Source: a virus
DNA: 38,189 nt
Virus record (IMG/VR): IMGVR_UViG_3300027151_000017
Span: 1 to 38,189 of that record
Reading direction: 5' to 3' (one strand)
Shown here: in pieces, positions 13,763 to 38,189 of the stretch
Numbering within the stretch: position 1 is the first letter of the stretch
How the letters are laid out: every line of letters starts with the position of its first letter
The notes under the pieces: model-generated
The model's database searches: none
Told to the model about the DNA's origin: nothing
Seen by the model: the letters and a program-made list of their open reading frames with translations, nothing else
Program-made: the position numbers and the translations under genes

Positions 13763-15402
13763 TGTCTGATTTGCAGATTTTTCAACAGCAGGATTTCAGC
13801 GGTGGTTTGAATCTGCGTTCTGACCAGTTTCAGTTGGCTGACAATGAGTCGCCATTGATGCTGAATGTTGAAATTGACCCTCGTGGTGGCATTTTTGGTC
13901 GTGGTGGCATGGAGCGTATTAATACGACTGCCGTCCCCAGTGCTGGTTGGACACCTCATAAGTTGTTTACTTTCCGTGCTGCTACCGGACCAAAGATTAT
14001 GTTGACGGAAAACAATAATGTTTTCTATTCTACTGGTGGCAACTTTACTAAGTTGCAGTGGAATAACGCTGGGACACCAACTGATGTCACGACAGTTAGT
14101 GACCATGGTGCTTGCATGACTCCTTGGGGTAATGTCATGTATTTTGCTACTGGTGCAACTGGAAGCAATGGTGGTTACAAGTGGACTGGCACTGGTTATG
14201 CCACCCAGATTACGGCCACCGGTCAAGGCCCTCACCCGTGGCAAGATTCTACAAACATTAGTCAAAGTGTTATTCCGCAGGCGGAACATTATTTGACGCA
14301 CGCAAACAAGTTGTTTGCAGCGTATGTAAGTGAACCACCAGAAAAAAATCTCGCTTCACCTATAGTTACTTATCCGAATCGTTTGCGTTGGTCCCGTGAA
14401 GGTGTGCCTGAGAACTGGGATTATGAAGATTATATTGACATCAATGGTGGTGGTGATGGTATTCACGCCATAATTGTTGTTCAGGGCCAATTGTTGATTT
14501 TTAAACCACGGGCAATATATGTTTTGACTGGTTATAACTCGAGCAACTTTGCGGTGACAGAACTAACCAGTACGCTTGGCGTTGACGACCATCATTGTGT
14601 TGCTGCCTCGGATTCCGGTTGTTTCTTTTTTGTTCACGGCAAAGGTTTGTATTACTATAATGGTTCTTCAATCTCCGATATTTTTGCACCATTGAAGCCA
14701 ATCATTGACTTGGGTTATATTAGTGATTCGGTTGCTGCTAGAGCAAATATAACGGTGTCTTGGGTTGGTCAGCGTGTCTGGTTGTCTTTGCCTTACAGCA
14801 AGAGTTATTCACCGAATAACATTACGGTCAATTTTGTTTATGACCCGTATTTGAACGCTTATACGCAATTCCAAACAGCCGATGGTTATGGCGTAATGGG
14901 TGGAATTGATTTCATCGATTCCACCAACAGGGAATACAGGTTGTTTATTCATCCTGTTCAAAAATTTGTGTTGGATGTGGACAAGTATGGTGTTGCTACT
15001 GACAACATTTCTGGCACAACACAGGGTTTTAACTCTTACTATAGAACCAAGTGGTATGACGCTGGGTCTTATATGCAGCGCAAAATGTTCCGTAGACCAG
15101 AAATTGTTATTAAGGAATCTAATAACTCGCAGACTATTGGTGTTTCTGTTTTCCACGATTTTGATGAACAGGAAGCACAGAGAACCTTTAATATTTCCCA
15201 ACCCCAAACCGGAGGTTTGGTGTGGGATAGTGGTTTGTGGGGCGAGTTGTGGGCTGCTGGTGCAGAGTCATCTCGCATTTCAAAAGGAAAGAATCTTGGA
15301 TTGGCGAAGACAGTCCAGTTGCAGTTCACTGGCCCAACAGGTCAGGAGTGGGGAATCAACAGTGTTGGGTTCAAATTTAAACCAAGGAGAGTGACAGGCT
15401 AA
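13762..15402 (+). CDS. Tail nozzle/hub protein (P22 gp10 or T7 gp12-like)
   Basis: A 546-residue beta-rich protein starting with QIFQQQDFSGGLNLRSD and followed by repeated blade-like segments (LLIFKPRAIYVLTG, GCFFFVHGKGLYYYNG, VWLSLPYSKSY). The DFSGGLN opening and propeller-like repeats match nozzle proteins of short-tailed phages, which close the tail end until DNA ejection. It couples by TAATG to both adaptor and the next gene. The podovirus assignment of the whole genome relies partly on this gene. Confidence 0.75.
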   Translation: MSDLQIFQQQDFSGGLNLRSDQFQLADNESPLMLNVEIDPRGGIFGRGGMERINTTAVPSAGWTPHKLFTFRAATGPKIMLTENNNVFYSTGGNFTKLQWNNAGTPTDVTTVSDHGACMTPWGNVMYFATGATGSNGGYKWTGTGYATQITATGQGPHPWQDSTNISQSVIPQAEHYLTHANKLFAAYVSEPPEKNLASPIVTYPNRLRWSREGVPENWDYEDYIDINGGGDGIHAIIVVQGQLLIFKPRAIYVLTGYNSSNFAVTELTSTLGVDDHHCVAASDSGCFFFVHGKGLYYYNGSSISDIFAPLKPIIDLGYISDSVAARANITVSWVGQRVWLSLPYSKSYSPNNITVNFVYDPYLNAYTQFQTADGYGVMGGIDFIDSTNREYRLFIHPVQKFVLDVDKYGVATDNISGTTQGFNSYYRTKWYDAGSYMQRKMFRRPEIVIKESNNSQTIGVSVFHDFDEQEAQRTFNISQPQTGGLVWDSGLWGELWAAGAESSRISKGKNLGLAKTVQLQFTGPTGQEWGINSVGFKFKPRRVTG

Positions 15403-16442: not shown

Positions 16443-16870
16443 GCGATGTTTATTATGGTGATTATGGCCTGAGTGAAGCCAGTGCCATATTTAATCGTGC
16501 CAAGCGTTCTGCAGCCACACAGGCTGCAATGTTCCGTGGGCAAACCCGTGGGCGCAGACGAGTCGGGGACATTCAACGGCAGTACCGTGAAGGGTTTGAC
16601 CCACTGGTGTCTTCGTTTGGTCAGCGTGGTTTGCTTGGCCCTAATGTGCAGTCTGGTATTACCCGTGAGGGTCTATCTAGGTATGCGGAATCTTTGCAGC
16701 GTGATTTGGGTACCGAAAATGAAAATATGCAGGACGAAATGAACAGGCTTGCTATTGAGGGTGCTTCTTCTCAGGAGGAGTTGGAGAACTATTTGGGTCA
16801 GTTGCGTTTGCAGAAGGCTCAAGATGTGATGCGTGCTGCTACTGAAATTAAGAATTTGGCTAGTTACTAG
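16439..16870 (+). CDS. Putative internal or structural virion protein
   Basis: A 143-residue helical protein beginning MSDVYYGDYGLSEASAIFNRAKRS, with GLLGPNVQSGITREGLSRYA in the middle and a long helical C-terminus. The gene lies in the run leading to the giant internal virion protein, so it probably belongs to the ejected core. No specific family recognised. Confidence 0.5.
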   Translation: MSDVYYGDYGLSEASAIFNRAKRSAATQAAMFRGQTRGRRRVGDIQRQYREGFDPLVSSFGQRGLLGPNVQSGITREGLSRYAESLQRDLGTENENMQDEMNRLAIEGASSQEELENYLGQLRLQKAQDVMRAATEIKNLASY

Positions 16871-16878
16871 GAGTTATT

Positions 16879-18099
16879 ATGGCTTACGAATGGGACCCAA
16901 TTAACCGTGTTTATACTGTTGTGCCGAAGAACCGTCAGGTTGTGACGACACCGCAGGTTCGTCAAGGGCAAACACAGGCAGCCGTTCAGGCTGCCCGTGG
17001 ACCTGTTCAGGGTGTTTCCGCCATAAAGGCACCCGAGGGTGCCAAAGGCCGTGTGCGTATGCCGGTCACCAAGAAGCCTGCGGTTAGAGGGCCTCAGTTG
17101 CCTCAGGGGCCTGCTTTGTTTGGTACAGCAGACCAACCTTATTCTCAGGTTGAGAACATTTTGAAGAATGACCCAACACTTCAGGATGATACAGATACGA
17201 CTGGTTTGTTGGAATCGATTTTGGCAACCATTGGTGGCGGTGGTGGCACTGGTCGTAATGATGCTCGTGATTATGCACGAGCAATGCAGGCTGCAAAGGT
17301 GTATGAGCGTGCTGGTTTGGCTGCGCAGGGACAGTACGCTGGTGAGGCTGAGCGTGCTTATCAGGCGATGCTGGACCGTATTGCGCCACGATATGAGCAG
17401 ATGCGCACGGATGTCGGTGCGGGGTTTGATGCCCGTGAGAAGGCTGTTCGTGAGTATTTGGCTGGTCAGTTGGGTGCTGGTGAGACTGCTATTACGGGTG
17501 CTGGCACTCAGGGTGCCACCACTATTGGTGAAGCAGAGAAGGCTTTGTTGGCGCAGTTGACTGCGCCAACGGCTTATCAGAATGTTCCGTTGGCGATGAC
17601 AACACCAGAGATGCAGGCGTTGGGTCAACAGTTGGCTTCGTATGGTGCTTCTGGTGAGCAGGCTGCTGCAGCCCGTCAGGAGAGTGCTGATTATGGTCGT
17701 CAGTTGGCTGAGATTCAGGCCCGTGAGATGGGGCAGTTGAATACTGCTCAGCAGAATTATATAACGGCTTTGCGTAATGCTGGTGTTGGGGCTGCTGCTG
17801 CAGCCCGCCAAGGTTTGGCTGGAAATGTGGCTAGTCAGTTGGCTGCTTTGCGTGGTGGCATTGCTGCTAATCAGGCTACAACTCTTAGCGATTTGGCTGG
17901 TGCTAGGTCTGAGGCGTTGCGTGGTTTGACTTCCAGTGAGATGGAGCGTCAGTTGGGGGCTGAGGATTTGCGTCAACAGTTGCTGACCAAGGGTTTTGAA
18001 ACCGGTTTGGCTGGTAAGCAATCTAGGGCTGAGGCCGAGGCTGCTGCTGTTAAAGAATTTGGTGTGCCGAAGAAGAAGAAGGGCAAGGGCAAGAAGTAA
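16879..18099 (+). CDS. Ala/Gln-rich helical virion protein
   Basis: A 406-residue protein. The first about 110 residues are low-complexity and Pro/Gln-rich; from about 130 to the end it is helical with Ala, Gln, Glu and Arg dominating (AAARQESADYGRQLAEIQAREM). It ends in a Lys-rich tail (KKKKGKGKK). Likely a core or ejection protein, by analogy with podovirus internal proteins encoded before the largest one. The long antisense frame over it (Ser/Leu-rich) is a by-product of codon bias. Confidence 0.55.
   Translation: MAYEWDPINRVYTVVPKNRQVVTTPQVRQGQTQAAVQAARGPVQGVSAIKAPEGAKGRVRMPVTKKPAVRGPQLPQGPALFGTADQPYSQVENILKNDPTLQDDTDTTGLLESILATIGGGGGTGRNDARDYARAMQAAKVYERAGLAAQGQYAGEAERAYQAMLDRIAPRYEQMRTDVGAGFDAREKAVREYLAGQLGAGETAITGAGTQGATTIGEAEKALLAQLTAPTAYQNVPLAMTTPEMQALGQQLASYGASGEQAAAARQESADYGRQLAEIQAREMGQLNTAQQNYITALRNAGVGAAAAARQGLAGNVASQLAALRGGIAANQATTLSDLAGARSEALRGLTSSEMERQLGAEDLRQQLLTKGFETGLAGKQSRAEAEAAAVKEFGVPKKKKGKGKK
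17547..17570. repeat. Perfect 10-bp hairpin, loop TTGA
   Basis: GTTGGCGCAG and its complement flank TTGA within the Ala/Gln-rich virion gene. Confidence 0.8.
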
Positions 18100-25185: not shown

Positions 25186-25675
25186 CTTGCATATCCTTCG
25201 CTAGTTCTAGTTGAAACGAGTCATTCCTGAGCATGATGCTGATGGCTGCGTAGCCAACAATGTCGCACCATGTGTCGTGTAATGATTCGTTGTTTGCTTC
25301 TGTGCCACGAGCCAAAAGGTTTTTGGCTCGTGCAATCTTGTCGCATAACCTGATGGCTACGCCAACCACACCAAACTTGTTGATGTTGTCGTGACCGTAG
25401 TCGTGCTGTTTGCTGACCAGCGTTTTAGCCATGTCGATTATGCTGAAGGTGGAGTATTCGTTGATTTGAAGGATGCCTTCCGTGCCTGCTTGAGTGAGCA
25501 TCGCATAAACCATGTCGGTGTCAAGTGTGTTGCCTTCGGCAATCCAATCGGAAATGTAATCTGAAACAATGTCCAGCACATCCATAGACGGGCTCTTGTA
25601 TTCTTGAACCTTGCTCGCAATTTCCCGAACCGCATTGAAGGCTCCCTCATCCCATGTTGTTGGATTGTTTTCCAT
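25178..25675 (-). CDS. Nmad1/DUF1599-like nucleotide-metabolism protein
   Basis: The ATG at 25675 has AAGGAG at 7-base spacing; the longer frame to 25777 overlaps the sigma-like gene and is not used. The 165-residue protein has LVSKQHDYGHDNINKFGVVGVAIRL, then DKIARAKNLL, NESLHDTWCDIVGYAAI near the end. The HDYG, N-FG, R-DK-R and D-DI-GYA pattern is that of the DUF1599 or Nmad1 family, related to MazG-type helical hydrolases and associated with nucleotide modification in phages. It may act on nucleotides during replication. Family call is moderately sure; the reaction is not. Confidence 0.65.
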   Translation of the reverse strand: MENNPTTWDEGAFNAVREIASKVQEYKSPSMDVLDIVSDYISDWIAEGNTLDTDMVYAMLTQAGTEGILQINEYSTFSIIDMAKTLVSKQHDYGHDNINKFGVVGVAIRLCDKIARAKNLLARGTEANNESLHDTWCDIVGYAAISIMLRNDSFQLELAKDMQDE

Positions 25676-25991
25676 TCCATATCTCCTTGAATCTTTCGTG
25701 TTTAAGTAGTTCTTCTTGTAAGTTTTGCATTGCTTTGCGTGTCTTGCGCCACGCATGAGATTTTGCTTTTGTGCCAATATTAGACGCTAGTTCTTCATAT
25801 GTCTCACGCAGGAAGAAAATTCTGTGCAGTATTTCTTGGTCTTGCGGAGACAACTTGTCGATGCACTCGTTGACGATGTCGAGCAGTTCCCAGTTTGGTT
25901 CCAATGCTTCGTCGTCATAGAACGGCATCATCAGCCGTTCAATGGGTGACGAGAACCTATTTAGTTTCTGTGTCGGTTCGTACTTCATCAT
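25647..25991 (-). CDS. Sigma-70 region-4-like DNA-binding protein
   Basis: A 114-residue protein (ATG at 25991 or 25988). Residues about 47-95 read CIDKLSPQDQEILHRIFFLRETYEELASNIG followed by a basic recognition-like helix and ALRNLQEEL-type end, the layout of sigma-70 region 4. Region 2 is missing, so it is not a full sigma factor. It may bind DNA alone or alter host RNA polymerase to switch to late genes, in line with small sigma-like late regulators such as ArpU-type proteins. It overlaps both neighbours. Confidence 0.65.
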   Translation of the reverse strand: MMKYEPTQKLNRFSSPIERLMMPFYDDEALEPNWELLDIVNECIDKLSPQDQEILHRIFFLRETYEELASNIGTKAKSHAWRKTRKAMQNLQEELLKHERFKEIWNGKQSNNMG

Positions 25992-26578: not shown

Positions 26579-26934
26579 CGCTTCACGACCTCTACATAAT
26601 GCACCTGCTTGTCGTCTGCCCAAGCAGCACCATTAAGACCATCCATCAGCAACTTTAAATAGTTGTCCACATCGCCACGCAGTTTGGATGGCAGGCCATC
26701 ATATGGTGCTACCGTTACAACTGTGCCGTCAGGGGAGAACTCAACCATAATCTGGACTGTGCCTTCGTATGTGGGGCCTGTCCATCCGTCACGGATTACA
26801 GCCTCAGCGTTCAGCGTTGTCTCGGGCGTGAACACACGCCCTCGCCTACCTAGTCTGGGTCTGCCTTTGGGGACTGGGCGGTCCTTGTAGAATTCTGTCC
26901 ACGGCTTTGTGGGGTCCGGCTTCTTGCGCCTCAT
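26575..26934 (-). CDS. rusA: RusA-family Holliday junction resolvase
   Basis: A 119-residue protein with the RusA order: PVPKGRPRLGRRGRVFTPETT near residue 20, the acidic core RGDVDNYLKLLMDGLNG (D88, D90, K94, D98) and ADDKQV (107-108). These are the metal-binding Asp and the Lys of the family. It would resolve four-way junctions so concatemers can be packaged. It overlaps the primase by four bases and lies with helicase, exonuclease and nuclease genes. Confidence 0.88.
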   Translation of the reverse strand: MRRKKPDPTKPWTEFYKDRPVPKGRPRLGRRGRVFTPETTLNAEAVIRDGWTGPTYEGTVQIMVEFSPDGTVVTVAPYDGLPSKLRGDVDNYLKLLMDGLNGAAWADDKQVHYVEVVKR

Positions 26935-27824
26935 GTGAACACTCTACTAACTAATTTATCTATTTCCAACTCGCCGTCAGCACGAAGATGGTACTTGCCC
27001 CAGCGTCGGTCAGCGTCGGTTATAACAACCTTGACCTGCGACGGGTTGAGCCCGTCTTCGGCACAAACATATGCCAGTCGTGTCAGCGTGGTGGAACGGT
27101 CACGGTTCGGCAACGGTCCGTCACGCCAGATGACTTTGGCAAGTGGTGACATGAACTTGAGTGCTTCGTCCATGCCTTCGCACTGCTGGTCGTCGTTACG
27201 CACATCGTATGTGCGGACCGGTGGCTTGTAATAAGCAGCGAGTCGGGTGATTATGTCAACATCGGTGGTGACTACATTCTGTAGAAACGAGTCCATCGGT
27301 ATCGGTTGCTGTGTGTGCCTGTCAATTATGACACGCCGTGCCGGCGTGCAGTTGTAACCACTGAAGTATGGAAGCCGAACATAGTTGCCGTATTGCCCTG
27401 CTCGTAACGCAACCTGTTTGGGGTTGACCTCACGGGCAGGCACCTCTGCAACCTGATGCGCTGCGAGAAACATAGACCTCATATCAGGGGCGAAGACAGG
27501 ATTAGTGGCAAAGACCCATATGTGGTAACCCTTCGAGCGTGAACGCTCTAGGTACGGATGTGCGCCACCTGCCTCGAGTGCGTCGTATATAGATGCAGCC
27601 ATGTCGAAGTCGTCTATGTCTATGTCGCTACAACCCCACGCCACAATGAATGTGCCTTCGGGTGTTGGAACAATTGGGTAAACGCCGATTGCGTTTACAC
27701 CTAATAGGTGACTTTCAAATACGGCAGGTGTCAATGGTTCCTTGACGCATCTGCCTTCCTCATGTCCGTATACATCGCCACGGCCACGAAATAGCATAAT
27801 GAATTTGTCAAGTGCTGCGTTCAT
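26931..27824 (-). CDS. Archaeo-eukaryotic-type (AEP) primase
   Basis: The ATG at 27824 is preferred because GGAGG lies 9 bases upstream and the helicase stop is one base away. The 297-residue protein carries the AEP catalytic DxD in CSDIDIDDFD (about 66-74), and SRSKGYHIW (95-103), the His-containing motif, then NYVRLPY. This is the PrimPol/TOTE-type primase core. Residues 220-297 form a helical tail with no extra domain. It should make primers for the DnaB-like helicase encoded next to it. No phage DNA polymerase was found, so host replicase probably extends them. Confidence 0.8.
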   Translation of the reverse strand: MNAALDKFIMLFRGRGDVYGHEEGRCVKEPLTPAVFESHLLGVNAIGVYPIVPTPEGTFIVAWGCSDIDIDDFDMAASIYDALEAGGAHPYLERSRSKGYHIWVFATNPVFAPDMRSMFLAAHQVAEVPAREVNPKQVALRAGQYGNYVRLPYFSGYNCTPARRVIIDRHTQQPIPMDSFLQNVVTTDVDIITRLAAYYKPPVRTYDVRNDDQQCEGMDEALKFMSPLAKVIWRDGPLPNRDRSTTLTRLAYVCAEDGLNPSQVKVVITDADRRWGKYHLRADGELEIDKLVSRVFT

Positions 27825-27825
27825 A

Positions 27826-28899
27826 TCACCAATCCTCCTCCCATAAAGCAATGTTCTCCGGCTCTGGTTCCGGTTTGTCTACGCCTTGTGTCCAAGGCAA
27901 ATTACCAGCAGGCAGACGGTTGAGTCTGCCGGTGCCATATTCAATTTCAAAGTCAATGTCATCAAGCAACTGCGACGATGGTCGCTTGCACTTCACAAGG
28001 TTGACTGTGATGGTGTGCTGGTGGATACGCAGGTCGTAACGCAACGAGTCCAGTCGTTCAAGCAAACGCTCAGTTTGGTTTGAACGGTCCAGTCGTTCTT
28101 CTATTTCACGAATCTGCGATTCAATCTCAAACCGCTTGCGACGCACACCAATGATATGTGTCGCTTGTTGTTCACCACCGTATGCACCGGACGAAATGGT
28201 CATCTTCTTGCCTTCGGCACCAGCAGACCGTGAGGTCTGGTGAAGCACTAGCAACGGGACATTATGGCGTTTGCCAAACGCTTTCAGCGTGTTGGCTTTT
28301 GACGGCACATCTTCACCGCCACCTTGCAACAATTCCAAATAGTCATAAACCAGCAACGCTGGTTTTGACCATAGGTCCTCGATTTCACCTAACGCTTTTT
28401 CCATCTCGTTTAATGTCATCATCTGGTCAAACACTGCGAGTTTGGGGAAGTATTGGTTGGCGGTGTCACGCAGAAGCGCAATCGCTTCTTGGTCGTTTTC
28501 CGCAATGCGTTCTTCTACAATGTTCGCATCTATGCCATGCACAAGGCAGGTCAACTTAATCAAGGTCAAGGTTCGTGGCTCATCGGGGCAGAAGTAAACC
28601 ACCGGTTTATCAGCGTTCGCCAACAGAATCTGCAACAAGAACAGTGTTTTACCACTGTGGCTATAACCATTGATGAGGCACATTTCTGCGGGGGCAATGC
28701 CACGCATCTGTGCATCTATATCTGGGAAGCCTAGATATATGCGTTCTTGTGGATGTTGCGCCCAGTGAACAAAGTCGTCCGCTGCATGAACCAAAGGTTC
28801 ATAAAAGGTTTTAATCTTTGGAGCAGAAAACACATCGGGAGGGGTAGTTGTACCCCTCCCTAGTGCCTGCCATCGCTCCGCATAGTTCGGAGCGTTCAT
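27826..28899 (-). CDS. DnaB-like replicative helicase
   Basis: The ATG at 28899 has GAGG 8 bases upstream and follows the previous stop by one base; the longer frame to 28986 would overlap. The 357-residue protein has Walker A GYSHSGKT (78-85) and Walker B LLVYDYLEL (182-190), with HQTSRSAG (switch-like) and an Arg-rich C-terminal part. It lacks the usual DnaB N-terminal domain, so it is a compact RecA-fold helicase. It should unwind DNA ahead of host polymerase, paired with the AEP primase. Confidence 0.85.
   Translation of the reverse strand: MNAPNYAERWQALGRGTTTPPDVFSAPKIKTFYEPLVHAADDFVHWAQHPQERIYLGFPDIDAQMRGIAPAEMCLINGYSHSGKTLFLLQILLANADKPVVYFCPDEPRTLTLIKLTCLVHGIDANIVEERIAENDQEAIALLRDTANQYFPKLAVFDQMMTLNEMEKALGEIEDLWSKPALLVYDYLELLQGGGEDVPSKANTLKAFGKRHNVPLLVLHQTSRSAGAEGKKMTISSGAYGGEQQATHIIGVRRKRFEIESQIREIEERLDRSNQTERLLERLDSLRYDLRIHQHTITVNLVKCKRPSSQLLDDIDFEIEYGTGRLNRLPAGNLPWTQGVDKPEPEPENIALWEEDW
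28837..28860. repeat. Perfect 10-bp hairpin, loop GTTG
   Basis: GGGAGGGGTA and its complement flank GTTG inside the helicase gene near its 5' end. It is GC-rich and could be stable in RNA; no U-tract follows. Confidence 0.8.
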
Positions 28900-28900
28900 G

Positions 28901-29323
28901 TCACTTGCCTCGTGGAGCCCAGAAAGCGTCATCAGTTGTGGTTGACTTGAACCACGGACGCTTTGGGTTGGCAGACAAACCGTCACGGTTGTCCCACACT
29001 TCGGTCACTCCCTTGGAGGCGCAGGCTGTGACCAGCCACTCCGGAATCGGACCGTGTTGCTTGCCCTTAATGCGAACCGACATTCCACCAGTGGTGGTGA
29101 CGGTTGCGTTCGGGAACGCTTGCTGGACATTTGCCACTGCCTGCTCAGGGGTGACTGCTGATTCGCCAGAGAAACCATGTTCGGTGAACATGAGGTCCTT
29201 GACTGCGTCAAACGCTGTTGCGAACGAAACAATGTTTGCGTTCACATCATCTGACTTGGGTGTGAGTTCGGCAGCGATTTTTGCTGCTACCTGCATCACA
29301 ATGGACTGGTCTTTATTGACCAT
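28901..29323 (-). CDS. Early protein between helicase and exonuclease genes; possible ssDNA-binding-type
   Basis: A 140-residue protein with GGAGG near the start. The N-terminal half is helical; the C-terminal half contains MSVRIKGKQHGPIPEWL and a conserved-looking VWDNRDGLSANPKRPWFK, followed by FWAPRGK. A WDNR...NPKRPxFK tail is shared with phage proteins that bind single-stranded DNA, as far as I recall. Its own promoter lies just upstream. Function is tentative. Confidence 0.5.
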   Translation of the reverse strand: MVNKDQSIVMQVAAKIAAELTPKSDDVNANIVSFATAFDAVKDLMFTEHGFSGESAVTPEQAVANVQQAFPNATVTTTGGMSVRIKGKQHGPIPEWLVTACASKGVTEVWDNRDGLSANPKRPWFKSTTTDDAFWAPRGK

Positions 29324-30238: not shown

Positions 30239-30985
30239 TCATTGTGTGAATCGTTGACGGTACTTCGTTACCGAAGAACTGTGGTATTTTCTGCCGAATT
30301 CCTCAAGGACAATACGGCATATTTCATGTGGAAGAAGGTCGGTGTTTAAAGCCAAGTCATGCATACGCTCCTTAGCCATCTGCTCCGGTGGCAGTTTGCC
30401 ACGGCGACGCTTCCAGTAGCGCAACAAACTGCGCACATTGCCTTTGGACAACCCTGTTTCTCGGGCAACCTCCGACATATTCACCGACTTCTGTGTGAAC
30501 TTTTCGTCCAGTTCCGCCAACTGCTCAAAGGTCATGCTTGTCGTCGCCTGACCGGCGCAAGCAGCCTCCAGAAACTGGTCCGGTGTAACATCAAGATGTT
30601 GCAGAATATGAACCAACGGCAAGTCCAGCCGGTCCATGCACATCTTGACCGTTTCACGGATTATAGCCCACTGCTCAAACTTTCTGCCCTCGAGATGCAA
30701 CCCCCTAGGCACATCGTTCAGCGTGAACCCAGCCTCATCGTTCTGCATAGTCCACGAATCGTAGAACCTGCACAAGTCTGTGAAGTAATCCAACATCTGG
30801 CTCGGGGTCCATGGGACCCCGTAACCACGCAACTCACAAATTTGTGGACCCATAAACATTTCCTTCACCGCATCCTTCACACGGATAGGTGTCGGAGTTT
30901 GTGGCAGAACCACATCACACAAACATTTCTCGTGGTGTTCAATAACACCACATCCAATTGGTCCAGCGACCATCACAAACCCCAT
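30239..30985 (-). CDS. Helix-turn-helix DNA-binding protein
   Basis: A 248-residue protein. Residues about 168-196 read NMSEVARETGLSKGNVRSLLRYWKRRRG, an HTH with a basic recognition region, and the C-terminus adds a second helical segment (HEICRIVLEEFGRKYHSSSVTKYRQRF) that may form another DNA-binding unit. The N-terminus has several Cys. It lies between the Rpf-like gene and the exonuclease gene. It could be an early transcription or replication-initiation regulator, and is one candidate for the array at 36491. Start 30985 versus 30973 is undecided. Confidence 0.6.
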   Translation of the reverse strand: MGFVMVAGPIGCGVIEHHEKCLCDVVLPQTPTPIRVKDAVKEMFMGPQICELRGYGVPWTPSQMLDYFTDLCRFYDSWTMQNDEAGFTLNDVPRGLHLEGRKFEQWAIIRETVKMCMDRLDLPLVHILQHLDVTPDQFLEAACAGQATTSMTFEQLAELDEKFTQKSVNMSEVARETGLSKGNVRSLLRYWKRRRGKLPPEQMAKERMHDLALNTDLLPHEICRIVLEEFGRKYHSSSVTKYRQRFTQ

Positions 30986-34039: not shown

Positions 34040-34060
34040 GGTGCCTCAGAATGAGGCACC
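34040..34060 (-). repeat. Perfect 9-bp triloop hairpin across the ATPase stop codon
   Basis: GGTGCCTCA and its complement flank GAA. The hairpin contains the stop codon of the AAA+ gene (34046-34048), like the one at 35436. Confidence 0.8.
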
Positions 34061-35314
34061 AGCGAGCATCTTTGTGGACTGTTCAGGATTCGCACCCTTT
34101 AGGATGGATGCACTGATGACTTCGTCATTGGTGAAGACACCAGTCGTCAGCATTTTGGCACCAGCCAAAGCACCACGAGGCGACACCACAACCTTCAAGC
34201 CGTTGGCTTGAACATTGGCACGAACCTTGCGAACAAAGTTCAACCAGTGTGTAGCAACCTCCGGTTGCAAACCAGTAGCCATAACCATCGCAGTTTCAAT
34301 TGACTCGTCAATTTGAATGTCAGCGGTGACAAACCGGTCAGTGAAAGCCTTATCCAAAGGATTACGACCAACATATTCGGCAGTGGCACCGTTACCGAAG
34401 GTATTGCCAGCAGCGATAGCGACGAAGTCGGCATGACGCTTAACCATACCATCGGGGAACGCCATCCAGCCATTGGCTAGTGCAGAGTTCAGTACACCCA
34501 ACACATTCGGATTACCAGCATCGACCTCATCCAGTAGGAACACTCCACCTTCTTCGAAGCGACGACGAAACTCGGTAGTGACATACTGTCCCGATGCCGA
34601 TATGAACCCCAACAAACTAGCCTCAGAGGTTTGGGCAGTCACCGACTTAGAACCGAACGCCAAGCCAAGGGCTTCAGCGCACTGTTCAGCGATAGTTGAC
34701 TTACCGGTACCAGCCGGACCAACCATAAGAATATGGTTGCGAACCGAGATATGGGCAAGAATCTTTGGGAATTGATGGTGTTGGATACCATCCAACTTCT
34801 TCGGCTCATGGTTCGGAATATGAACCTCGACAACCTTCGGTTGGCGAGACTCAAGTTCGTGAACCTTCCTAATGAGGTTGTAAACAACATCGACTTGACT
34901 GTCGATTCGGTCATTGACCGGTTGCAATTGCTGTTCAACAGCAACCCTGACTTGTTCCAAGTCAACCGATGCTTTTGATGCTTCCTGAACTGCTTTCAGC
35001 AGTTCCTTGATGGCGTTGTCAACGCTCACTTCGTTGCCCTCCTCAGGGATAGGTGATGGTGTCGGTGCCGGCTTCGGAGAAGCCGACCAGTTGGTCTTAA
35101 TTGCATTATAAAAACCATCCAACTCATCCACCGAATGGTGGATGTACGGACGGTCAAACTTGTGACCAAGCATCTTCAATGCTTGACCCTTGTCATTCTT
35201 CGGAAGACAATAGTAGTTCGTCCGTTGGACCCTATCCGGCTTCGCCGGATAATGCCAAAGGACAATGTCAGTGGCGGTATCGACAGATACCACCGTGTTT
35301 GCTTTGCGAGCCAT
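34046..35314 (-). CDS. MoxR-like AAA+ ATPase (AAA_5)
   Basis: A 422-residue AAA+ protein. The N-terminal about 75 residues are a separate domain, followed by a Pro-rich linker (about 79-92) and a predicted coiled coil (about 100-155). The ATPase has Walker A GPAGTGKS (199-206), Walker B VFLLDEVD (258-265), sensor-like IAAGNTFGNG and DRF with the finger Arg. The features are those of MoxR/CobS-type ATPases that remodel a partner protein, often one with a von Willebrand A domain. The next gene downstream (33163) is the likely partner. AAGGAGG precedes the start. Early phage role unknown. Confidence 0.85.
   Translation of the reverse strand: MARKANTVVSVDTATDIVLWHYPAKPDRVQRTNYYCLPKNDKGQALKMLGHKFDRPYIHHSVDELDGFYNAIKTNWSASPKPAPTPSPIPEEGNEVSVDNAIKELLKAVQEASKASVDLEQVRVAVEQQLQPVNDRIDSQVDVVYNLIRKVHELESRQPKVVEVHIPNHEPKKLDGIQHHQFPKILAHISVRNHILMVGPAGTGKSTIAEQCAEALGLAFGSKSVTAQTSEASLLGFISASGQYVTTEFRRRFEEGGVFLLDEVDAGNPNVLGVLNSALANGWMAFPDGMVKRHADFVAIAAGNTFGNGATAEYVGRNPLDKAFTDRFVTADIQIDESIETAMVMATGLQPEVATHWLNFVRKVRANVQANGLKVVVSPRGALAGAKMLTTGVFTNDEVISASILKGANPEQSTKMLAGASF
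35125..35144. repeat. Perfect 8-bp hairpin, loop GAAT
   Basis: CATCCACC and its complement flank GAAT within the ATPase gene. A 7-bp triloop hairpin also lies at 35069-35085. Confidence 0.65.
35233..35251. repeat. Perfect 8-bp hairpin, triloop TTC
   Basis: TATCCGGC and its complement flank TTC within the ATPase gene. Confidence 0.7.
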
Positions 35315-35384: not shown

Positions 35385-35432
35385 GTGCATTGTGGGGAAT
35401 CGAACCCCATAAACCACCAACTGGTCAACGCC
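35385..35432 (-). ncRNA. tRNA-like structure lacking the anticodon arm
   Basis: Read on the minus strand this 48-base element has an acceptor stem GGCGTTG with CAATGCA (six pairs including one G-U; the outermost pair is G-A), a D arm ACC-AGTTGGT-GGT with the GG of tRNA D loops, a 3-base linker TTA, and a canonical T arm TGGGG-TTCGATT-CCCCA. There is no anticodon arm and no encoded CCA. It lies in the spacer between the 35450 gene and the AAA+ gene, on the transcribed strand. It may be a decayed tRNA or a selected processing signal for RNase P or Z. Confidence 0.6.
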
Positions 35433-35435
35433 CAC

Positions 35436-35454
35436 TGTGACTCTATGAGTCACA
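35436..35454 (-). repeat. Perfect 8-bp triloop hairpin across a stop codon
   Basis: TGTGACTC and its complement flank TAT. It contains the stop codon of the 35450 gene (35450-35452) and abuts the tRNA-like element. Confidence 0.75.
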
Positions 35455-35851
35455 TCTTGGCTTGATAAGCCTCCAAAGCGGACCGGAACCGGTCCCAATC
35501 GGACTCATACATATCACGCCAAACCACAGGATTACCACCAACGGTGTTAATCCAAAGCCCCTTGCTAATTCGCAAAGACGAACCGACTGTCTCTGCCAAT
35601 TTGGCAGTGCCAGCCTTGTCGGTCATTGAATCCCAACCGATAGACAGCGGTCCCATCCACCAGTCGCCTTCTTCAGCGAATTCGTAAACGAATTCGACCA
35701 TCTCCGTCTTATAGTGTCGAATGACACGAACATTAGCGAAGTCCATGTCGGAGACATAATCTTCGGCTGACCAATTACCAGCGGTCAGTACCTGACCGTC
35801 CTTCCAAGGTGTCACCTTCGGTGACAACGCAGTGATGGATGAAACTCGCAT
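35450..35851 (-). CDS. Early protein of unknown function (133 aa)
   Basis: A 133-residue protein with AGGAGG seven bases before the ATG. The centre has EMVEFVYEFAEEGDWWMGPLSIGW split by Gly, then GLWINTVGGNPVVWRDMY, so it is beta-rich with many Trp. The C-terminal helix is WDRFRSALEAYQ. It is the first gene after the leader with the tRNA-like element at 35897 and lies upstream of the AAA+ gene. I do not recognise it. Confidence 0.55.
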   Translation of the reverse strand: MRVSSITALSPKVTPWKDGQVLTAGNWSAEDYVSDMDFANVRVIRHYKTEMVEFVYEFAEEGDWWMGPLSIGWDSMTDKAGTAKLAETVGSSLRISKGLWINTVGGNPVVWRDMYESDWDRFRSALEAYQAKM

Positions 35852-35878
35852 TATAGAACCTCCTATTGTCTATGCGAT

Positions 35879-35895
35879 TACCGACGAAGTCGGTA
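35879..35895 (-). repeat. 7-bp triloop hairpin before the 35450 gene
   Basis: TACCGAC and its complement flank GAA. On the minus strand it reads nearly the same as the arm inside the tRNA-like element just upstream (ACCGACTTYGTCGGT in both). Confidence 0.75.
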
Positions 35896-35896
35896 G

Positions 35897-35958
35897 CCCT
35901 AAGGACCGGAATCGAACCGGACACCGACAAAGTCGGTGACGCACCAGCGCACCTCAGG
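35897..35958 (-). ncRNA. Compact tRNA-like structure with a hairpin in place of the anticodon arm
   Basis: Read on the minus strand: acceptor CCTGAGG with CCTTAGG (7 pairs, one G-U), then TG, a minimal D arm CGC-TGGT-GCG, a hairpin CACCGAC-TTT-GTCGGTG, and a T arm with the canonical loop TTCGATT on a 4-bp CCGG stem. Total about 62 bases, against about 75 for a tRNA. If the hairpin were read as an anticodon arm it would have C instead of U at position 33 and almost no variable loop, so it is unlikely to decode. It lies in the leader of the 35450 gene. Confidence 0.6.
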
Positions 35959-36460
35959 CGTGGCGTACTTATATACCTGCACAACACCACGCAGGTCACG
36001 GGCAATGGACACACCGAAGGTGTGTACGCACCCCGCCATGCAGTCGGCATAAATGCCGACCACGAGAACCTAGACGCACTTGCTCCTATTATCAGTGCAG
36101 GTCGCCACAAGTGAGAGCGATGCAAAGCACAAGCACCAGTAGAACCTAGGGAAGGGCATTACTCGTAGTGAAACCTAGGGACCAGTGCAAGCCTGACTGA
36201 CCTAACCCCAACCCGAAACCGTAGTCGTGAAACCGTGGGGAACCGCACCACCGACTGACATCCCGTCAAGCCGTGGCATCGGCGTTGCTCTATGGCCACC
36301 GAAACCGGCGGGGCAACGACAAACACCGTAACGGACCCCACAACCACTGTCAAGCATCCCCCCAAAATGGCAACCCCACCGAAGGTGAACCTCGCCTCAG
36401 ACACAGCCGACGCATACCTGAGGCACAGCCACACGCACAGGTCGCACGCCTCAGGCACGC
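35959..36460 (-). other. Long untranslated leader region of the early operon
   Basis: About 500 bases without a convincing gene. It holds two triloop or short-loop hairpins (ACACACC with loop GAA near 36009; GTCGGCAT with its complement near 36042), two copies of AACCTAGGGA, a weak TATATAAG box (about 35967-35974) just upstream of the tRNA-like element, and TTGACA near 36346 without a good -10. The only plus-strand frame of size (36292-36603) lacks a ribosome-binding site. Confidence 0.5.
36143..36181. repeat. Direct repeat AACCTAGGGA, two copies
   Basis: Identical 10-base copies at 36143-36152 and 36172-36181, with a related AACCTAG near 36067. Each contains the palindrome CCTAGG. Possible protein-binding sites in the leader. 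Confidence 0.5.
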
Positions 36461-36489
36461 CCGATAGCAGAACTCGCATCATCTGTCAA
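36461..36489 (-). promoter_or_regulatory. Main early promoter (leftward)
   Basis: On the minus strand a perfect TTGACA (36484-36489) is followed after exactly 17 bases by TATCGG (36461-36466), preceded by TG in the extended position (TGCTATCGG). The start should be near 36454. It would drive the tRNA-like leader, the AAA+ operon and genes to its left. The -10 is only 3 of 6, so help from the array upstream is likely. Confidence 0.65.
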
Positions 36490-36490
36490 G

Positions 36491-36530
36491 TTTTGCATGA
36501 TTATGCACCGTTATGCATGATTATGCAGGG
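36491..36530 (-). promoter_or_regulatory. Four 10-bp-phased repeats directly upstream of the -35
   Basis: On the plus strand the units begin TTTTGCA, TTATGCA, TTATGCA, TTATGCA at 36491, 36501, 36511 and 36521, exactly one helical turn apart; units 1 and 3 share the following TGA, so two 14-base TGCATGATTATGCA copies recur 20 bases apart, each a 5-4-5 inverted repeat. The array ends one base from the TTGACA. That geometry is the place and phasing expected of an activator-binding array. Two weaker GCATGGGGG copies, also 10 bases apart, lie near 36563. Confidence 0.65.
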
Positions 36531-36655
36531 CGATTCTGCTCCTGAGGTGTGCGTGCGCAACACGCATGGGGGTGCATGGGGGGGTGTACGCCCCTATGTG
36601 TGAATGATTCTTTTCCACGAGGGCCAGAGCGACCTCTCCGGATACCCCTGAGGGG

Positions 36656-36730
36656 TGGCTGCCTCGCTTGGGGTCGAACCAAGACTTTACGGATTAACAG
36701 TCCGTTGCACTGCCATTATGCTACGAGGCA
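36656..36730 (-). tRNA. tRNA-Asn (GTT)
   Basis: A full cloverleaf on the minus strand: acceptor TGCCTCG with CGAGGCA (7 pairs), D arm GCAT-AATGGCAG-TGC, anticodon arm ACGGA-CTGTTAA-TCCGT giving anticodon GTT, a short variable loop, T arm with loop TTCGACC, discriminator G and an encoded CCA. It lies 12 bases after the 36743 gene, and a 5-bp ACCCC hairpin with loop TCA follows directly. It is standard in size, unlike the two tRNA-like elements. Confidence 0.95.
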
Positions 36731-38067: not shown

Positions 38068-38189
38068 TGTTTTGTCTCCGCCACATCAACGCTGCCCCCG
38101 CAGGGGCAGCACAATAAACCTAGAAGAAAGGCCATTCGGCTGCTACGCTCACGCTCGCAGCCACCCGTGAGTAACCGTCCCCCCCCCCT
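38068..38189. other. Right-end region with no gene
   Basis: No gene is visible. It holds the hairpin at 38091 and a GGCTGC...GCAGCC pair near 38140, and ends in a run of C, which looks like an end artefact rather than phage sequence. No overlap with the left end of the window was seen. Confidence 0.5.
38091..38110. repeat. Perfect 8-bp GC-rich hairpin, loop CGCA
   Basis: GCTGCCCC and its complement flank CGCA upstream of the leftward genes at the right edge. It could terminate rightward or leftward transcripts, but no U-tract follows. Confidence 0.65.

Follow-up and report, generated by a model that had tools for sequence, protein, structure and literature searches.

The window, by which we mean the whole stretch of DNA that was analysed, is one virus record of 38,189 bases. 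From terS onwards, its genes for packaging and structure are oriented rightwards, and a leftward block contains the genes for an AAA ATPase, a DUF7192 protein, a PD-(D/E)XK exonuclease, a DnaB-like helicase, an AEP-type primase, a RusA-like resolvase and a sigma region-4-like protein. Between this replication block and tRNA-Asn sits the region of a repeat array, where the minus strand carries, in this order, tRNA-Asn, a C-rich box, the array, one base, TTGACA, 17 bases, TATCGG, a leader of about 600 nt and the first gene, which starts at 35851. The promoter P1 is directed at the replication operon (AAA ATPase, exonuclease, DnaB helicase, primase). The features are:

21-440, rightward, on the strand opposite to the P1 operon: terS
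25647..25991, minus: 114-aa sigma region-4-like protein, candidate regulator
26931-27851, minus: AEP-type primase of the leftward block
27826-28986, minus: DnaB-like helicase of the leftward block
30239..30985, minus: 248-aa protein with weak HTH matches, candidate regulator or initiator
34046..35314, minus: AAA ATPase, second gene of the operon, used as bait for finding relatives
35450..35851, minus: first gene of the operon, 133 aa, no family match
35852..36454, minus: leader of about 600 nt, from P1 to the first gene
36325..36353, minus: P2, a second promoter downstream, TTGACA-17-TACGGT, conserved in the relative L220
36461..36469, minus: extended -10 of P1, TGCTATCGG, with TG at 36469-36468 and TATCGG at 36466-36461
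36483-36467, minus: 17-nt spacer of P1, ending in TGC
36484..36489, minus: -35 of P1, TTGACA by direct reading, a hexamer enriched across loci
36491..36527, minus: array of four units 10 bp apart, TTTTGCA and then three times TTATGCA on the plus strand
36565..36598, minus: C-rich box CATAGGGGCGTACACCCCCCCATGCACCCCCATG, a conserved landmark upstream of the array region
36656..36730, minus: tRNA-Asn(GTT), upstream of P1 and also present in G019, G036, L220 and other relatives

The 36743 and 37060 proteins, which lie upstream of P1 beside tRNA-Asn, gave no regulator match. When the window end (38130-38189) is joined to positions 1-30, a terS leader like that of the relatives results, with a C run followed by CTACAGGAACA and, further on, ATG; the record is therefore probably a circularly permuted, nearly complete genome that was cut at the C run. 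Two tRNA-like elements on the minus strand, which have an acceptor-like stem and a T-arm but lack other arms, mark gene junctions in the replication operon: that at 35897-35959 precedes the first gene, and that at 35385-35432 lies between this gene and the AAA gene. They gave weak matches to mascRNA and tRNA-Sec, and the window contains only three such T-arms, the third being that of tRNA-Asn. Such tRNA-like elements were also seen upstream of the first genes in several relatives (among L220, L221, L228, L231, L265, L284 and L109). The elements of window and relatives alike could be RNase P/Z processing sites or trimmed tRNAs.

Direct reading confirmed the geometry and coordinates of the original prediction, namely four units 10 bp apart and one base away from TTGACA-17-TATCGG with an extended TG, and places this promoter on the minus strand. 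On the plus strand, TTTTGCA occupies 36491-36497 and TTATGCA occupies 36501-36507, 36511-36517 and 36521-36527, with a period of exactly 10 bp. Read on the promoter strand, the array is TGCATAATCA TGCATAACGG TGCATAATCA TGCAAAA, followed by a single C (36490) that separates it from the -35, and it spans approximately -37 to -73 if the start is assumed to lie near 36454. The fourth unit is a copy with one mismatch. The same bases also form a 20-bp doublet of two identical TGCATGATTATGCA (36494-36507 and 36514-36527), and the periodicity score was 16 at lag 20 and 13 at lag 10. As TGCA is self-complementary, the orientation of the units is ambiguous from the window sequence alone. The array is the sole place in the window where three identical 7-mers recur at any fixed period from 8 to 24; among 150 Markov shuffles of the window, three contained any such triple and none a triple with a fourth unit. 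The array is thus real and beyond chance, and it is part of a control region found family-wide.

By consensus, the -10 of P1 (TATCGG) is weak, with three of six matches, and P1 is absent from the output of a standard consensus promoter scan. Its status as a promoter is supported by its conservation in relatives: L220 keeps TTGACA-17-TGCTATCGGGCG with an identical extended -10 and a divergent spacer sequence, and close variants are TGCTAAC in L240 and GGCTATC in L226 and L227. On the operon strand, TTGACA occurs nine times in 38 loci (1.2 expected), compared with one TGTCAA for the opposite strand. A generic -10 downstream of the half-sites described below was not above chance family-wide (3.54 vs 3.26 in shuffles, sd 0.32), and for this reason the promoter can be regarded as firm in the window and its nearest relatives only. 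P2 has identical hexamers and spacing in L220, and P2-similar promoters followed by TTTGGCATCG are found in seven other relatives. The leader additionally contains three CTAGGTT repeats at 36059-36181 (minus), and L220 has five CCTAG/CTAGG matches; across the relatives, CTAG was not clearly enriched (3.5 vs 2.4 per kb).

A search of a phage collection returned no near relative of the window. For the capsid protein, IMG/VR contains at least 599 relatives, and none were found in cellular genomes. The 133-aa first gene and the 36743 and 37060 proteins were poor or unspecific baits, whereas the AAA protein worked and led to 80 loci, most of them with the intergenic region. L220 is the nearest relative over the operon, with 55% in the AAA protein. 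Most relatives repeat the same landmarks: the C-rich box GGGGCGTACCCCCCCATGCCCCC is followed by copies of CATAAT or of its complement, and these by the leader; their regions were anchored on the C-rich box, and loci lacking it were not counted. With the window left out, 33 of 37 non-redundant relatives contained CATAAT/ATTATG, with 70 occurrences in total where 6.2 were expected, and CCATAATC was found 26 times in the same 37 loci (0.37 expected). An unbiased EM motif search converged on [CG]CATAAT[GC] with a log-likelihood of 126, compared to 49-59 in shuffles. The density of CATAATC was 7.5 per kb in the intergenic region and 0.79 per kb in the remainder of these loci. Of the 21 pairs of same-strand neighbours, 10 had a spacing of 10-12 bp, where random placement would give 2.5 (P=0.0004). 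The half-site CATAATC, a specific 7-8-mer, is therefore present family-wide at the position of the array.

In the window as a whole, GATTATG is the most over-represented coding-strand 7-mer by a dinucleotide model (26 vs 2.4), and synonymous-codon shuffles gave 9.1 expected against 24 seen, rank 5 of 11,422. A role of the 33 genome-wide copies of CATAATC as stoperators or Chi-like sites was considered and dropped, because most copies lie in genes as GAT-TAT-G or ATT-ATG and the codon shuffles explain part of the excess.

The original prediction had been made to depend on the phased unit occurring in close relatives, and here the outcome was divided: in L220 the half-site is present and the strict arrangement of four units at 10 bp is absent. 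Instead, two CATAATC-type half-sites face each other as a dyad-like pair, TCATAATC-GCTGT-GATTATAG. Many relatives have one to three half-sites in either orientation, spaced by 7-26 bp, and CATAATC pairs or triplets at 11 or 12 bp occur in L005, L250, L233 and L224. G036, whose 37060 protein showed the highest similarity in the first set of relatives (83%), lacks CATAAT at the site and has directly after its C-rich box, at the same syntenic position, a 10-bp array of four to five units of another sequence. When IMG/VR was scanned for the exact pattern of the unit, the only matches came from two unrelated contigs: in L002/L003 the unit forms a tandem repeat at the contig ends, and in L004, an AT-rich phage, four TGCATAA units precede a promoter-like site, the latter a case of recurrence and not of homology. 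Among the loci seen, strict four-by-ten phasing of CATAATC is particular to the window, and the half-site is general.

Phased arrays were also observed elsewhere. An unrelated AT-rich phage, L111 (IMGVR_UViG_3300026549_000119), has two 10-bp-phased arrays (15029-15067 and 16845-16891). One consists of four TGCATAA and lies, flanked by two small HTH-like ORFs, ahead of a promoter-like site, and the other consists of five TGAACNGTA; the TGCATAA unit shares its 7-mer with the window, probably by convergence. One subclade of the relatives has four to six copies of GTAACA/TGTTACA every 11 bp, either immediately before terS or at the 3' end of the 36743 gene (L276:1878, L284:1563, L285:1621, L269:3169, L281:2570, L107:15092-15134, L109:8488-8528). 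These resemble the GTnAC-n6-GTnAC sites of actinobacterial OmpR-type regulators such as GlnR. An inverted repeat TGTTCCC...GGGAACA about 20 bp before the terS start is conserved in L227, L265, L296 and other relatives.

Several known systems share some aspects of this arrangement. The sites of lambda CII have the form TTGC-N6-TTGC, in which, as in TGCA-N6-TGCA of the window, a tetramer at a phage promoter is directly repeated after 10 bp. The CII repeats straddle the -35 (PMC3335776), whereas the window units do not and are four in number. Alt of Lactococcus phage TP901-1 and Ltr of Staphylococcus phage Phi13 are late activators of temperate phages; Alt has four imperfect direct repeats at -76 to -32, and the Phi13 promoter P23 needs four repeats (PMC13123087). 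The window array falls into the range of this group, which has about four direct repeats between approximately -110 and -32 (PMC13123087), and by analogy it may work like such phage activator arrays. However, Alt and Ltr drive late packaging and structural genes and are encoded directly upstream of their promoters (PMC13123087), whereas P1 faces the replication operon and is preceded by tRNA-Asn and the 36743 and 37060 genes, with no recognisable regulators. We do not place the window array in the Alt/Ltr group, because the neighbouring activator gene and the late operon are both absent. Head-to-tail repeats spaced by one helix turn on one face beside the promoter are also typical of activators with an OmpR/PhoB fold (actinobacterial SARPs, PMC4393881; PhoP, PMC3335776), and the function of PhoP sites depends on phase and orientation (PMC3335776). 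The window units differ from SARP sites, where repeats with a period of 11 bp overlap the -35 and the last lies 8 bp from the -10 (PMC4393881): they are spaced by 10 bp and all lie upstream of an intact, perfect TTGACA; some relatives do have 11-bp CATAATC pairs. The CATAATC motif is also unlike the published sites of PhoP and OtcR. No OmpR-fold protein was found among the phage proteins scanned, and such a protein could be encoded by the host.

Two proteins encoded in the window had been put forward as candidates for binding the array. For the 114-aa protein, the suggested sigma region-4 fold was borne out (3hug chain K, TM 0.81 by target length). In the C-terminal part of the 248-aa protein there is a divergent HTH region with weak HTH matches, and comparison of the predicted structure of this protein with the PDB gave no significant match (best E 0.37). 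Neither candidate could be tied to the array: homologues of both proteins occur in G025, and of the HTH protein in G022 and G036, all of which lack CATAATC sites, so that presence and absence favour neither.

Regarding the function of the array, a regulator array beside the -35, as originally predicted, is supported by the conservation of the half-site, its 10-12 bp spacing and the conservation of P1 in the nearest relatives; the origin iterons named alongside it found no support in the tests made. We regard the units, with slightly better than even confidence, as putative half-sites of a transcription factor on the upstream face of P1, taken as an early promoter, through which the factor most likely activates the replication operon. 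Successive subunits of the factor would bind one helix turn apart, all on the same side, and the last would stand beside sigma bound at the -35. We infer protein binding at the array, activation over repression and contact with RNA polymerase. The factor is more likely an activator than a repressor, because all units lie upstream of the -35, outside the core promoter and at the position of phage activators, and because the -10 is poor, which fits a promoter that needs help. The different 10-bp array of G036 at the same syntenic position also speaks for this reading of the units as a whole, whereas the absence of strict four-by-ten phasing in L220 and the one to three half-sites of mixed orientation in relatives speak against it, as does the combination of perfect -35 and extended -10, with which P1 might not need an activator. 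The array could alternatively be a repressor operator that shuts off the replication operon, as an early-to-late switch or in superinfection control, with the two TGCATGATTATGCA, each an imperfect dyad TGCAT-N4-ATGCA, binding dimers 20 bp apart. The exact 20-bp doublet, the dyad-like pairs in relatives such as L220 and the mixed orientations of half-sites agree with an operator, which we nevertheless consider rather unlikely: the -35, the -10 and the start are all free of units, the preferred arrangement of half-sites is same-strand spacing by one turn, and no protein scanned gave an above-threshold match to an integrase or CI-type repressor family.

Short tandem direct repeats near replication genes are also found as iterons at phage and plasmid origins, and an initiator binding such iterons here would load the DnaB-like helicase beside its own genes. 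The long non-coding region with half-site arrays beside the replication operon would suit an origin, and one subclade only (L255, L263, L296) has a perfect DnaA box TTATCCACA beside the half-sites. The GC-skew check suggested with the original prediction gave a divergence at this genome end, as for transcription, but the skew is explained equally well by the direction of transcription. The window differs from iteron origins in its 10-bp phasing beside a -35 and in lacking an AT-rich unwinding region and consistent DnaA boxes. Across the loci there is no conserved unwinding region (at most one of 38 loci reaches 76% AT in any 50-bp bin) and no general enrichment of DnaA boxes (5 in 39.9 kb vs 19 in 356 kb), and in the nearest relatives the sites precede a conserved promoter. 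An iteron origin is thus improbable and a weaker reading than transcription-factor sites. Still less probable is an AT-rich UP-type element for the alpha-subunit C-terminal domains, which would require no dedicated protein. The array lies where UP subsites lie, and the half-site bin has an A+T content of 0.56 compared to 0.40-0.42 on either side, but what is conserved is the specific 7-8-mer CCATAATC and no general A/T tract, and the units contain TGCA. That a chance repeat came to lie beside a chance promoter is hardly credible in view of the shuffle test and the conservation of half-site and promoter, even if the consensus scan misses P1.

Returning to activator sites at P1 as the favoured reading, we tentatively propose, as a possibility short of the probable, that a large family of uncultured phages controls its replication operon through a dedicated new factor that reads CATAATC, with number, orientation and helical phasing of the sites rebuilt from phage to phage and the promoter retained in the nearest relatives. 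The analysis provides a conserved control site, open to testing, for the replication genes of a phage family that is abundant and known from metagenomes alone. This site can be used as bait for the missing regulator, and the family represents a natural series of changes in helical phasing for one half-site.
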